Shown piece after piece: positions 33,925 to 41,783 of a DNA stretch of 64,000 nt. Under the pieces are notes generated by a model. The model saw only the letters and a list, made by a program, of their open reading frames with translations. It had not been told where the DNA came from and did not search any database. Positions within the stretch are counted from its first letter, which is position 1. Every line of letters starts with the position of its first letter. The translations under genes and the position numbers were made by a program. This stretch comes from Planktotalea sp. (GTDB lineage: Bacteria; Pseudomonadota; Alphaproteobacteria; Rhodobacterales; Rhodobacteraceae). The DNA lies in the NCBI RefSeq assembly GCF_018607995.1, contig NZ_JABBAL010000017.1, positions 1-64,000 on the forward strand, read 5' to 3'.

Positions 33925-34632
33925 TTGCGGCCTTGCACTATCTTGGCGTCGGATAAGGGATTAGGAGTGGGCGCGTTGGCGGAGCAAAGTGCAAAGCAAC
34001 TGACCACAGTACGCGACAGGTTGCGTGTGCAAACCCGCGACGTTCATGAACAACTGCATCATCATTCCACCTTCGTCGATCTGTTCAAGAACACCATTTC
34101 ATTTGACGACTACAAAGCTCTCATTCTGCGGTTTTATGGATTCTATGTTCCTCTGGAACGCGCGGTTGAGAGAGTATTTGCAGGCATGAGTAATGACGCA
34201 TCACCCTATTTCTACGAGACTCGGGCACATCATTTGAAAGTTGATCTGCTGGATCTAGGCTTTAGTCCCTCCGAGATAAAAAACGCGCCACTGTGCGACG
34301 ACGTCTTTAATGTGGTTTCAAAAACCTCGCTTGGCGGTGTGCTTTATGTGATTGAAGGGTCCACACTAGGGGCCGCCCCAATCGACCGCGCAGCGCAGCG
34401 TTTGCTAAGTGGAGACGTGCTCGATGGACGACACTTTTGGGCGTGGTGTAGATCCCAGAACAAGAACCGCTGGTCATTGACCAACGACTACATCGAAACC
34501 TTGGAAGCAAATGGGGTAGCTTTTGGTCATCTCGCAAAGGGTGCCAATGATACGTTCCAAGCCTTGGCTGATTGGCTCGCCCCTATAGATCACAACAACG
34601 TGGCAATCGACACCCGCGAGGTTTTTGCGTGA
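33925..34632 (+). CDS. Heme oxygenase (biliverdin-forming)
   Basis: LRVQTRDVHEQLHHHSTFVDLF ... GVLYVIEGSTLGAAPIDRAAQRLL; overlaps the bacteriophytochrome start. Real start may be GTG 33967. Confidence 0.82.
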   Translation: MRPCTILASDKGLGVGALAEQSAKQLTTVRDRLRVQTRDVHEQLHHHSTFVDLFKNTISFDDYKALILRFYGFYVPLERAVERVFAGMSNDASPYFYETRAHHLKVDLLDLGFSPSEIKNAPLCDDVFNVVSKTSLGGVLYVIEGSTLGAAPIDRAAQRLLSGDVLDGRHFWAWCRSQNKNRWSLTNDYIETLEANGVAFGHLAKGANDTFQALADWLAPIDHNNVAIDTREVFA

Positions 34633-36920
34633 GTGATGCAGACCAAGTCGATCTAACCGCCTGTGATCAGGAACCCATCCACTTAATTGGTGCGGTACAA
34701 CTTCATGGCGCTTTGATCGCTATCGATGCCAAGACCCACAACATTGACTACGTAAGCGAAAACACTGAGCACTTCGTTGGTTTCACTCCAGAGATGATCC
34801 TCGGAAAACCCCTATCCTATTTGATTGGCGAGGAAAATTCCGCACGCGTGCAGAAAATGTCACTACAGCCATCTACGCCAGAGCTGTTGAAACCTTGGTT
34901 CATTTCTTTCGAGCGCCCTGATGGAACAACGATCAACGCCGAATGCTTGCCCCATGGCAATGACGGCCATGTCATATTTGAATTTTTCGAACCTGAACCA
35001 ACACCTGCCCCTATGTGGGAGGATGAATTGTCCCGCCAAGCGGTGATTTCCGAACTGCTGAAAACCGGTGATCTAAACGATCTCGCCGACGCAAGCGCGC
35101 GTTTGATCCGCGATGTTATTGGCTTTGACCGGGTGATGATCTACAAATTCGCAGAGGACAAACATGGCGAGGTGATCGCGGAAAGCACCAATCGTGATGA
35201 CAGCTTTCTGGGCATGCACTACCCCGCCTCTGACATCCCTGATCCTGCCCGACGTCATTTTACGTTAAACGTCATGCGCTCAATCCCCGATATCAACAGT
35301 GCCCGCGTCCCCATTGTGAGCCGATCGGGTCAAATTGCGGATGCAGATTCTGCTGCGCCATTGGATCTCACCTTCTCTAAACTGCGCGCTGTGGCACCGA
35401 TGCATGTGCAATACCTCAACAACATGGGTGTTGGCGCGAGCATGTCGATTTCTTTGGTTACCAATAATGAGCTTTGGGGGCTTGTGGCGTGCCATCATTA
35501 CAGCAAACGCATCATTTCTTCGAGCCGCCTGCGCTTTGCAGAACTGTTGGGGAGCACTACGTCGACTTTGCTTCAAAACCTGGAGAACACAGCGCAGTTG
35601 CGTACAGGTATTCAAGCCGAAAAGATTGCTTTCTATATTGAACAGCAAGTTCGTTCAGGAAGAGCATTGCGCGATCTGATTGAGGAACAAGCCTCAAAGA
35701 TAATGACGCTGATTGACGTTCAAGGCATGTGTCTTGTTCTCGGGGGCGAAGTACTGCACGTTGGCAAAGTTCCAAAAGAACCATTGGATTTCACCTTCTT
35801 TTTTGACGAATTAAAAGAAGGCATTGCGACGACAGACCATCTGCCTTCGATCATTACGATGGATGAGAACCAAAAAGAGTGTGCAGCTGGCGCAGCTCTC
35901 TTGGACTTGTCCGATGATGGTGAAGATTATCTAGTATTCTTGCGGCAGAGCTATGATCAAACGATCAACTGGGCAGGCAAACCCGAGAAAATTGAAACCA
36001 TCGACGAAAACGGGATTAAAAGGCTGTCACCCCGAGGGTCTTTCGCCCTCTGGAGCCAGGAACGACGCGGCAGAAGCAAACCCTTTGATGAAATCATTCG
36101 CGATGCATTGCGCATCCTCAGGCGCGCACTCTTTGCACTCAATAGCCTTGAACGCAAACGGATCGCACTTAGAGCCCAGAAACAAGCTGAAGCCGAGGAA
36201 ATTCGCTTACGTCACGCATTACTCGATGCGGCACGCGCCAACTCTCTTGGGGAACTTGCTTCAGCAATTGCACACGAATTAAACCAGCCGCTGTCAGCGA
36301 TTGCGAACTACGTCAGCGCTTGCCGTCAAGAACTGCGCAACGCCAATGTGACGATCCCAGAGCGCGCAGGGGTTTTGATCGAAGACGCAGTTGTTGAAAC
36401 CGAACGTGCCGGGGATTTGGTGCGCCGCATACGAGATTTTATCACGCGCGGCGATCTGAACACGGAATACATCGATCTTAACAAAGTGATCCAGCAAGGC
36501 GTCGATCTTGCATTAGTGACGTGCCAATTGCCAAATCTTAAGGTCAATGTTCGACAAGATCTGACCATTTCAAAAGTGCTCGCCGATCCGGTTCAAATTG
36601 GTCAAGTCATACTAAATTTGGCGCGTAATAGCATCACTGCGATGAAACATTCTGACGATCAGATCTTAACAATAAGCGTCGCTCAGCAGACTGGTTTTGT
36701 CCAAGTGAGCGTATCAGATAGTGGCTCTGGAATTCCGGCAAACGTTGCAAAATACATCTTTGAGCCGTTTCACACCTCAACAACCAAAGGCATGGGAATA
36801 GGTCTGTCGCTATGTCGTTCGATCATCGAGGCACATTCCGGCAAGATTTGGTTTGAACCGTCCCAATCGGGCGCTATCTTTTTTTTCCAGCTCCCAATTT
36901 TAGAGAATGAAAATGGATAA
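34629..36920 (+). CDS. Bacteriophytochrome (PAS-GAF-PHY) with FixL-type histidine kinase output
   Basis: CDQEPIHLIGAVQLHGALIAI (biliverdin Cys region), HYPASDIPDPARRHF (GAF), PRGSFALWSQERRGRSKPF (PHY tongue), IAHELNQPLSAIANYVSACRQEL (H-box), MGIGLSLCRSIIEAHSG (G-box). GTG start coupled to heme oxygenase. Confidence 0.92.
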   Translation: MSDADQVDLTACDQEPIHLIGAVQLHGALIAIDAKTHNIDYVSENTEHFVGFTPEMILGKPLSYLIGEENSARVQKMSLQPSTPELLKPWFISFERPDGTTINAECLPHGNDGHVIFEFFEPEPTPAPMWEDELSRQAVISELLKTGDLNDLADASARLIRDVIGFDRVMIYKFAEDKHGEVIAESTNRDDSFLGMHYPASDIPDPARRHFTLNVMRSIPDINSARVPIVSRSGQIADADSAAPLDLTFSKLRAVAPMHVQYLNNMGVGASMSISLVTNNELWGLVACHHYSKRIISSSRLRFAELLGSTTSTLLQNLENTAQLRTGIQAEKIAFYIEQQVRSGRALRDLIEEQASKIMTLIDVQGMCLVLGGEVLHVGKVPKEPLDFTFFFDELKEGIATTDHLPSIITMDENQKECAAGAALLDLSDDGEDYLVFLRQSYDQTINWAGKPEKIETIDENGIKRLSPRGSFALWSQERRGRSKPFDEIIRDALRILRRALFALNSLERKRIALRAQKQAEAEEIRLRHALLDAARANSLGELASAIAHELNQPLSAIANYVSACRQELRNANVTIPERAGVLIEDAVVETERAGDLVRRIRDFITRGDLNTEYIDLNKVIQQGVDLALVTCQLPNLKVNVRQDLTISKVLADPVQIGQVILNLARNSITAMKHSDDQILTISVAQQTGFVQVSVSDSGSGIPANVAKYIFEPFHTSTTKGMGIGLSLCRSIIEAHSGKIWFEPSQSGAIFFFQLPILENENG

Positions 36921-37518
36921 AGACGCAGACAAATTTTCAATCTATGTTGTTGAAGACGATGACGCCGTCTCAAAGTCTCTGTGCGCACTTCTAACCGCAC
37001 ATGGGTTCGAAACGATCGCGTGTACTTCTGCCGAACAATTTTTAGACCACTACGACCCTGCCAAAAAAGCATTCATGATGCTGGATCTGCGTCTCCAGGG
37101 TATGTCCGGGCTTCAGCTTCAGACGCATTTGAACGCGCTGAACGTCAAAATCCCGATTGTGGTTGTAACAGGGCATGGCGACGTGCCTGTTGCAGTCCAA
37201 GCAATGCGCGCTGGGGCGGTTGACTTTATCGAAAAGCCTGCGAATGAGGACCGTATCCTCAAGGCTGTCGAAACCGCGTCGGGGCTGCTGTTTAACAAGC
37301 GACCTGCGATCGTTTCCAAAAAGATCGTCGCAGATCGACTTGAAAAATTGACCGATCGCGAACGCGAAGTGTTGCATCACCTTCTGCTTGGTAAGTTGAA
37401 CAAGGAAATCGCAAGTGAGCTGGACGTGAGCCAACGCACGGTCGAAGGTCATCGTTCGCGCATTCGCAACAAGATGCAGGCGCGTGGGATCGCCGATCTC
37501 ATTCGTATGGTTGGGTAG
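36907..37518 (+). CDS. FixJ-type response regulator (REC plus LuxR HTH)
   Basis: YVVEDDDAVSKSL, MMLDLRLQGMSGLQLQ, VTGHGDVPVAVQAMRAGAVDFIEKP, LTDREREVLHHLLLGKLNKEIASELDVSQRTVEGHRSRI. Confidence 0.92.
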   Translation: MKMDKDADKFSIYVVEDDDAVSKSLCALLTAHGFETIACTSAEQFLDHYDPAKKAFMMLDLRLQGMSGLQLQTHLNALNVKIPIVVVTGHGDVPVAVQAMRAGAVDFIEKPANEDRILKAVETASGLLFNKRPAIVSKKIVADRLEKLTDREREVLHHLLLGKLNKEIASELDVSQRTVEGHRSRIRNKMQARGIADLIRMVG

Positions 37519-37531
37519 AACGGAGATGCGT

Positions 37532-37551
37532 ATAAATACGTGCGTATTTAT
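37532..37551. repeat. Perfect dyad ATAAATACG-TG-CGTATTTAT
   Basis: Read directly; core AATACGTGCGTATT recurs at 40222..40235. Confidence 0.8.
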
Positions 37552-41155: not shown

Positions 41156-41221
41156 CTTTTGGAATATTTCGCCAAAACTAACAGAAAATTCAAATTTCGC
41201 AGTCAAATACTGGCTTTAATG

Positions 41222-41239
41222 TGTAAATCAAAGTTGACA
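41222..41239. promoter_or_regulatory. Putative PpsR box TGTAAATCAAAGTTGACA
   Basis: TGT-N12-ACA, upstream of bchF. Confidence 0.65.
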
Positions 41240-41294
41240 GATACACTCTATGCTGCCAAATTTTATCAAAGGCTAAGCCGTCTCAGGGGATCAC

Positions 41295-41783
41295 ATGACA
41301 AGCACGTCACGAACAGCACAAGAACAGATCGGGCTGTACACGCCCGAGCAGCGCGTGCGCCGTGACAACAGCATTTGGACCACTGTTCAGGCCATTCTAG
41401 CACCCCTGCAATTCGCAGTTTTTCTGGTCTCTCTGGTGCTGGTTCTGCGCTACCTTACGACAGGTGCTGGCTATGAAATTGCAACCGTTTCCATCATCGC
41501 GAAAACGTTCCTTTTGTATCTCATCATGGTGACTGGTGCGATCTGGGAAAAGGTGGTGTTCGGACAGTGGCTTTTCGCCCCTGCGTTCTTTTGGGAAGAC
41601 GTGATCAGCTTCGTCGTGATCGGGCTTCACACCCTTTATCTATATGGTCTCTTGACGGGCAGTATCGGTCCAGAAGCGCTGATCGTAATCGTGCTAATGG
41701 CCTATGCCACTTACGTCGTGAATGCAGGTCAATTCCTGTGGAAATTGCGCGCTGCGCGCCTTCAATCGGAGCTCGCGGCATGA
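41295..41783 (+). CDS. bchF: 2-vinyl (3-vinyl) bacteriochlorophyllide hydratase
   Basis: 162 aa membrane protein: [40 protein letters not shown]; start of bchFNBHLM. Confidence 0.93.

Follow-up and report, generated by a model that had tools for sequence, protein, structure and literature searches.

A bacteriophytochrome operon with FixL/FixJ-type parts and a candidate FixJ-type promoter beside ppsR in a Planktotalea photosynthesis gene cluster

Gene organization of the locus

A window of 64,000 nucleotides from Planktotalea sp. (contig NZ_JABBAL010000017.1, positions 1 to 64,000) carries, at the edge of its photosynthesis cluster, seven genes that an earlier note on this DNA had listed in the order heme oxygenase (HO), bacteriophytochrome-histidine kinase (BphP), fixJ, a B12-binding protein, ppsR, a second B12-binding protein (ppaA), and bchF. 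We found all seven, in this order. The genome is very near that of Rhodobacteraceae bacterium HTCC2083, with phytochromes that are 93% identical. The locus suggests a circuit in which the phytochrome and FixJ would control, through a candidate promoter, the first B12-binding protein, here called AerR2, and through it the repressor PpsR.

The first gene of the block, HO (33925-34632, +), starts at TTG 33925 or GTG 33968 and matches Pfam PF01126 Heme_oxygenase with an E value of 4.8e-14. It is followed by BphP (34629-36920, +), of 763 amino acids with PAS_2, GAF, PHY, HisKA, and HATPase domains, and by fixJ (36907-37518, +), encoding a FixJ-type response regulator with a receiver (Response_reg) and a LuxR-type helix-turn-helix (HTH; GerE). 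The start codon of BphP is likely GTG 34629 rather than TTG 34572; this GTG lies inside the HO stop (GTGA), and BphP and fixJ overlap by 14 bp. The ends of these three genes overlap or touch, as in a single operon. Between fixJ and aerR2 (37934-38779, +) there is a gap of 415 bp, and aerR2 lies tail to tail with the ppsR/crtJ repressor gene (38776-40188, −; TIGR02040, 379 bits against a cut-off of 275). Beyond it are ppaA/aerR (40247-41116, −), the B12 antirepressor gene classically paired with ppsR, with a B12-binding domain, and bchF (41295-41783, +; TIGR02020, above cut-off), the first gene of the bacteriochlorophyll operon. Co-oriented ppaA and ppsR pointing away from bchF are a common purple-bacterial arrangement, and the addition here is the HO-BphP-fixJ-aerR2 block.

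A phytochrome sensor joined to a FixL-type kinase

The phytochrome model spans residues 23-551 of BphP, and the best kinase model, the rhizobial NCBIfam FixL, covers residues 536-779 with 199 bits (next kinase model, 132), in agreement with the earlier proposal of a chimera of phytochrome input and FixL-type output. The FixL equivalog score is not reached (199 of 850 bits), and the sensor is a phytochrome, not a heme PAS. Its PAS-GAF-PHY core has the biliverdin-binding Cys, the GAF Asp/His, and the PRxSF tongue of bacteriophytochromes.

We searched for phytochrome orthologs in a set with one genome for each species of bacteria and archaea and compared the window proteins by tblastn with those loci and with the loci of 298 family genomes (L and G numbers denote loci and genomes). 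The pocket residues checked are invariant in every full-length ortholog, namely the CDxEPIH Cys, the DRVMIY Tyr, the PASDIP Asp, the APxHxxYLxNMGV His/Tyr, the ACHH His, and the PRGSF tongue; an unusual chromophore chemistry is not supported. The description of the chromophore-binding residues as atypical was thus overstated: Cys12 and EPIH are present, and the motif is the ordinary family form, IGA(V/I)QPHG, here IGAVQPHG with one local change, a QLHG peculiar to the window.

The FixL-like H-box (HELNQ) had been read correctly. It retains the His, Glu, and Gln with which the FixL-derived YF1 carries out its kinase and phosphatase reactions (PMC6798134). The phospho-accepting His follows the PRxSF Arg at a distance of exactly 80 residues in 14/14 proteins, including the 35%-identical L052, compared with 66 in the solved phytochrome that we examined; therefore, the linker is longer by two heptads. 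Among engineered DrBphP-FixL fusions, those in the parental register are red repressed, and polarity cannot be predicted from register alone (PMC9594775, PMC11164954). By analogy, we lean slightly toward a kinase that would be on in the dark or far-red and off in red, because a linker two whole heptads longer than that of DrBphP-type phytochromes matches DrF1, a red-repressed fusion, in register.

The FixJ-type partner expected for this kinase is present. It matches the NCBIfam FixJ model with an E value of 1e-58 and 198 bits against a cut-off of 255, so that it is FixJ-like and not called FixJ; it also matches the PDB structure of FixJ (5xso, E 5e-39), and its HTH matches that of the solved FixJ. 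The genome holds no other close FixJ homolog, the next matches being 35% identical over the receiver only, or 30%.

A conserved element between fixJ and aerR2

Aligning the fixJ-aerR2 gaps side by side revealed a conserved element of ~40 bp, 5' of aerR2, that starts at most ~50 bp from the fixJ stop. It is made of a 6-4-6 TACGTA-N4-TACGTA box plus TCCGAACTATC, with the consensus CGTACGTANTANTACGTAGTGGTAAATCCGAACTATCTC; its core consists of two TACGTA-like halves with a spacing of 10 bp. In the window, this candidate FixJ-type promoter element of aerR2 lies at 37526-37561 (+), with the box TGCGTA-TAAA-TACGTG at 37527-37542. Published FixJ sites comprise an in-vitro-selected GTAMGTAG type and a 16-bp TAAGTAATTTCCCTTA with a 6-4-6 layout (PMC4999443). 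The element box, a predicted site, resembles this consensus in its TAAGTAATTTCCCTTA layout and contains the GTAMGTAG type. Since the HTH of the window FixJ matches that of the solved FixJ and the genome has no other close homolog, this regulator would be the natural candidate to bind the aerR2 element.

A sequence-only profile was built from 11 copies of the element, so that hits at the training loci arise by construction. Each Rhodobacterales genome with the module has one high-scoring copy, which is the top match and always lies in the fixJ-aerR2 gap. In G306 (L037), a Rhizobiales genome that was not in the training set, the genome-wide best match falls directly after fixJ (E 0.007). Among the 298 family genomes, strong matches were confined to G000, G124, and G265, which are those with a BphP kinase plus fixJ-aerR2, and two marginal matches occurred elsewhere (E 0.036 and 0.05); G045, with fixJ-aerR2 and no kinase, has only a degenerate element, as judged by eye. 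We found no sign of a wider FixJ regulon, as no genome has a second strong copy of the full element and the box alone is no more frequent than a reversed control, and no FixJ box was seen 5' of the HO promoter. The reading that best fits these patterns is a phytochrome two-component system whose conserved output is essentially a single promoter. Rfam gave nothing credible for a cobalamin riboswitch or other RNA in the fixJ-aerR2 leader.

Directly after the element, three loci encode a ribbon-helix-helix-like protein of ~80 amino acids with no Pfam match (L040, 12981-13223, +; L037, 13097-13375, +; L039, 8716-9003, +). Identity between loci is 47-58% over 55 residues; a remnant is found in L041, and the open reading frame (ORF) has been lost in the window.

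A second FixJ-type box (40222-40243, −) lies 34-55 bp 5' of the ppsR start and is identical to the aerR2 box at 20/22 positions, where the best of 300 shuffles reached 16. FixJ may perhaps act on ppsR itself. A related box occurs at ppsR in L041, and beyond this locus and window/HTCC2083 it is not general, being absent in L033-L035; thus, the ppsR branch would be lineage specific.

AerR2 and its distribution

As the earlier note had it, two B12-domain proteins lie beside ppsR, AerR2 and PpaA. AerR2 is a stand-alone B12/SCHIC-domain protein that scores just above the Pfam B12-binding cut-off and carries the motif GEDHTLG; ExHxxG is present in nearly all orthologs. Among PDB structures, AerR2 matches AerR best (7te2, E 5.5e-10), with AppA second. 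In AerR, the His of ExHxxG serves as the lower ligand of cobalt (PMC6199135). In a tree (R. capsulatus AerR not included), AerR2 and the PpaA of the same genomes fall in separate clades with support of 100/99.

AerR2-like proteins, defined by an E value below 1e-30, occur in 52/124 phototroph genomes and in 2/174 others (Fisher 4e-21). The photosynthesis plasmid of S. guttiformis has an AerR2 relative (~41%), annotated as hypothetical, inside its photosynthesis cluster. Given this distribution and the place of the S. guttiformis gene, AerR2 likely has a role in photosynthesis control, and it may contact PpsR; the PpaA-PpsR contact is B12 dependent in D. shibae (PMC10890935). Among plasmid and phage records, we found no close BphP; plasmids had only AerR2-like genes of ~40%, the one of S. 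guttiformis included.

Conservation and decay of the module

Orthologous phytochromes were found at ten loci in the one-genome-per-species scan, with 56-93% identity. BphP, FixJ, and AerR2 are adjacent in nine relatives (L032-L036, L038, L040, L041, and L049; 44-93% identity), all of them phototrophs, and HO precedes BphP in 8/9 (HO orthologs, 39-95%). The earlier note had staked its reading on this linkage being kept in relatives; the gene order recurs in other genera and is therefore not due to chance. At the HO position of L036, directly 5' of the phytochrome, there is a gene for a 228-amino-acid stand-alone B12/SCHIC-type protein (8887-9573, +).

The position of ppsR varies. In L032, L033, L035, and L041, aerR2 directly faces ppsR-ppaA-bchF in convergent orientation; ppsR lies several kilobases off in L034, L038, and L040 and at another site in L036 and L049. 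Outside Rhodobacterales, BphP-FixJ is divergent to a ppsR gene (L037 and L039). The module is rare, with BphP kinase plus fixJ-aerR2 in 3/298 sampled genera. All 14 genomes with a BphP-FixJ pair, be its sensor truncated or full, also carry PpsR and reaction-centre genes, whereas G218, which has neither, retains only a 191-amino-acid phytochrome stub.

Several genomes hold parts of the module. G124 (L048) has lost HO and the PAS-GAF region and keeps part of PHY plus the kinase (405 amino acids), FixJ, the element, and AerR2 beside ppsR. G045 (L099) has the order tspO-fixJ-aerR2-ppsR with no kinase at the locus, tspO (9873-10352, −) occupying the phytochrome kinase position. Only aerR2 is left beside ppsR in G241 (L098), with a transposase-like gene at the fixJ position. 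G152 carries a decayed phytochrome fragment (L100, 68-454, +) beside aerR2 and retains ppsR, with no reaction-centre match. In Aquibium (L039), the element is followed by a small ORF and then tspO, not aerR2. TspO is a regulator in the same pathway in Rhodobacter. With aerR2 or tspO next to this FixJ, its attached outputs are thus photosynthesis-control genes.

In G265, the module lies apart from the photosynthesis cluster, beside an IS256-like transposase piece (L049, 18427-18711). Another contig of this genome (L050, 7884-8793) has a partial second copy comprising the kinase half and 38 FixJ residues.

Proposed circuit and alternative explanations

We propose the following chain, to which we give a probability of roughly two in three. 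Heme oxygenase would supply biliverdin to the phytochrome, and light would shift the kinase/phosphatase balance of the FixL-type output and with it the phosphorylation state of FixJ. Phosphorylated FixJ would bind the 6-4-6 box beside its own gene and turn aerR2 on, rather than repress it, and AerR2, with B12, would modulate PpsR and hence bch/puf expression from the promoters that PpsR controls. In the lineage of the window, FixJ may additionally act on ppsR. Light color would then probably set the strength of photosynthesis gene repression. The earlier note had red/far-red, blue/B12, and redox signals converging on PpsR; the linkage, the FixJ partner, and the B12 proteins of that view stand, and its inputs need not be parallel, since the element in the fixJ-aerR2 gap places phytochrome-FixJ upstream of aerR2. 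Therefore, the light signal would act in series, through antirepressor synthesis. A stronger version, in which two photoreceptors act in series and the phytochrome-FixL/FixJ system doses, from a dedicated promoter, a B12-based and possibly light-sensitive PpsR antirepressor, is tentative, and we rate it at somewhat less than even odds.

Several observations weigh against the chain. The fixJ score is under the NCBIfam curated cut-off, and the window element is the most diverged Rhodobacterales copy, at 26 bits; it reads CTAGTG against the CTATCTC of relatives. Identity between AerR2 and PpaA is no more than 25-30%, and many phototrophs that lack BphP-FixJ carry AerR2-like genes. Finally, the fixJ-aerR2 gap is long and in some relatives contains a small unrelated ORF (L040), so the promoter may first have served that ORF.

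An unlikely alternative is that the element serves another regulator or the ribbon-helix-helix-like ORF, with AerR2 a mere downstream passenger. In L040, L037, and L039, the homologous ORF separates the element from the gene that follows, which in L039 is tspO and not aerR2. Yet the ORF is gone in the window, L033-L035, L048, and L049, while the element and aerR2 persist; moreover, the box is like FixJ sites, and fixJ is always the preceding gene. It is rather less probable that the phytochrome acts directly on PpsR, as BphP1 does on PpsR2 in Rhodopseudomonas palustris, and that kinase and FixJ serve another, unlinked function. Such contact is known (PMC5362033), and the divergent placement of the phytochrome and ppsR genes in L037 and L039 would suit it, but the window phytochrome ends in a complete FixL-type kinase (HisKA/HATPase), encoded in an operon with FixJ, rather than in a non-kinase, PpsR-binding output. 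In addition, G124 still has kinase, FixJ, and AerR2 beside ppsR without PAS-GAF, and the element would tie FixJ to aerR2. We consider very improbable a plain co-localization of photoreceptor genes, with no shared function, on the edge of a photosynthesis cluster that moved horizontally. Photosynthesis clusters do move among roseobacters, and the G265 module sits away from photosynthesis genes next to a transposase piece; against this, gene order, overlaps, the noncoding element, and linker length are maintained across 44-75% protein identity, and no full module occurs outside phototrophs.

Comparison with known systems

The closest counterparts, the synthetic optogenetic pREDusk and pREDawn systems (DrHO, a DrBphP photosensor::FixL kinase, and FixJ; PMC9594775), are built as the same three-gene operon, with FixJ driving one promoter. 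The window operon differs in being natural, in its longer linker, and in a candidate promoter that precedes an antirepressor-like photosynthesis gene, whereas pREDusk/pREDawn use FixK2-promoter targets. With the rhizobial oxygen system FixL-FixJ it shares the catalytic half of the kinase, a HELNQPL H-box, a FixJ with a LuxR-type HTH, and, as a predicted site, a 6-4-6 box of the TAAGTA/TACGTA type. Unlike in that system, a phytochrome PAS-GAF-PHY replaces the heme-PAS, the target would be aerR2 and not fixK, and FixJ scores below its curated cut-off. A phytochrome beside ppsR and the link to photosynthesis control recall BphP1-PpsR2 of R. palustris and BrBphP-PpsR of photosynthetic Bradyrhizobium. 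Those phytochromes work by protein contact with PpsR and are not known to use a kinase-FixJ-promoter route. AerR2 resembles the AerR/PpaA antirepressors of CrtJ/PpsR in its B12-binding domain, its ExHxxG cobalt-ligand motif, and its ppsR neighbor but differs in forming its own clade and in standing behind a candidate FixJ-type promoter. AppA and LdaP are also light receptors that relieve PpsR, but there the receptor itself binds PpsR, whereas here the phytochrome would control the amount of antirepressor. As far as the open literature that we searched shows, this combination of known parts has not been described in nature, and within that scope the label of an under-described regulatory system holds.

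If the reading in series is true, evolution built the operon that synthetic biologists designed as pREDusk. Red/far-red control of bacteriochlorophyll in aerobic anoxygenic phototrophs, an abundant marine group, is largely open, the regulators known so far in a roseobacter being the blue-light LOV protein LdaP and B12-bound PpaA. The circuit proposed for this locus is concrete and testable, with one conserved target behind a named candidate promoter of ~40 bp, and natural mutants for comparison exist in G124 (no sensor), G045 (no kinase), and G241 (AerR2 only). A natural phytochrome-FixL/FixJ operon is also a template for optogenetic tools that have been assembled artificially from the same parts.

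Other features of the window

The motif TGTN12ACA occurs 15 times in the whole window, with 14.6 expected, and is thus not enriched. Because this count equals chance, we used only the two PpsR-type sites in the ppaA-bchF gap (41138-41155 and 41222-41239, no strand assigned), as argued from their position. The start of ppaA is likely ATG 41116, since the longer TTG reading would contain a PpsR-type site. To the left of the block (30213-32381), a gene for the beta-hydroxyaspartate-cycle regulator BhcR and a divergent aminotransferase-type gene form an ordinary neighborhood.

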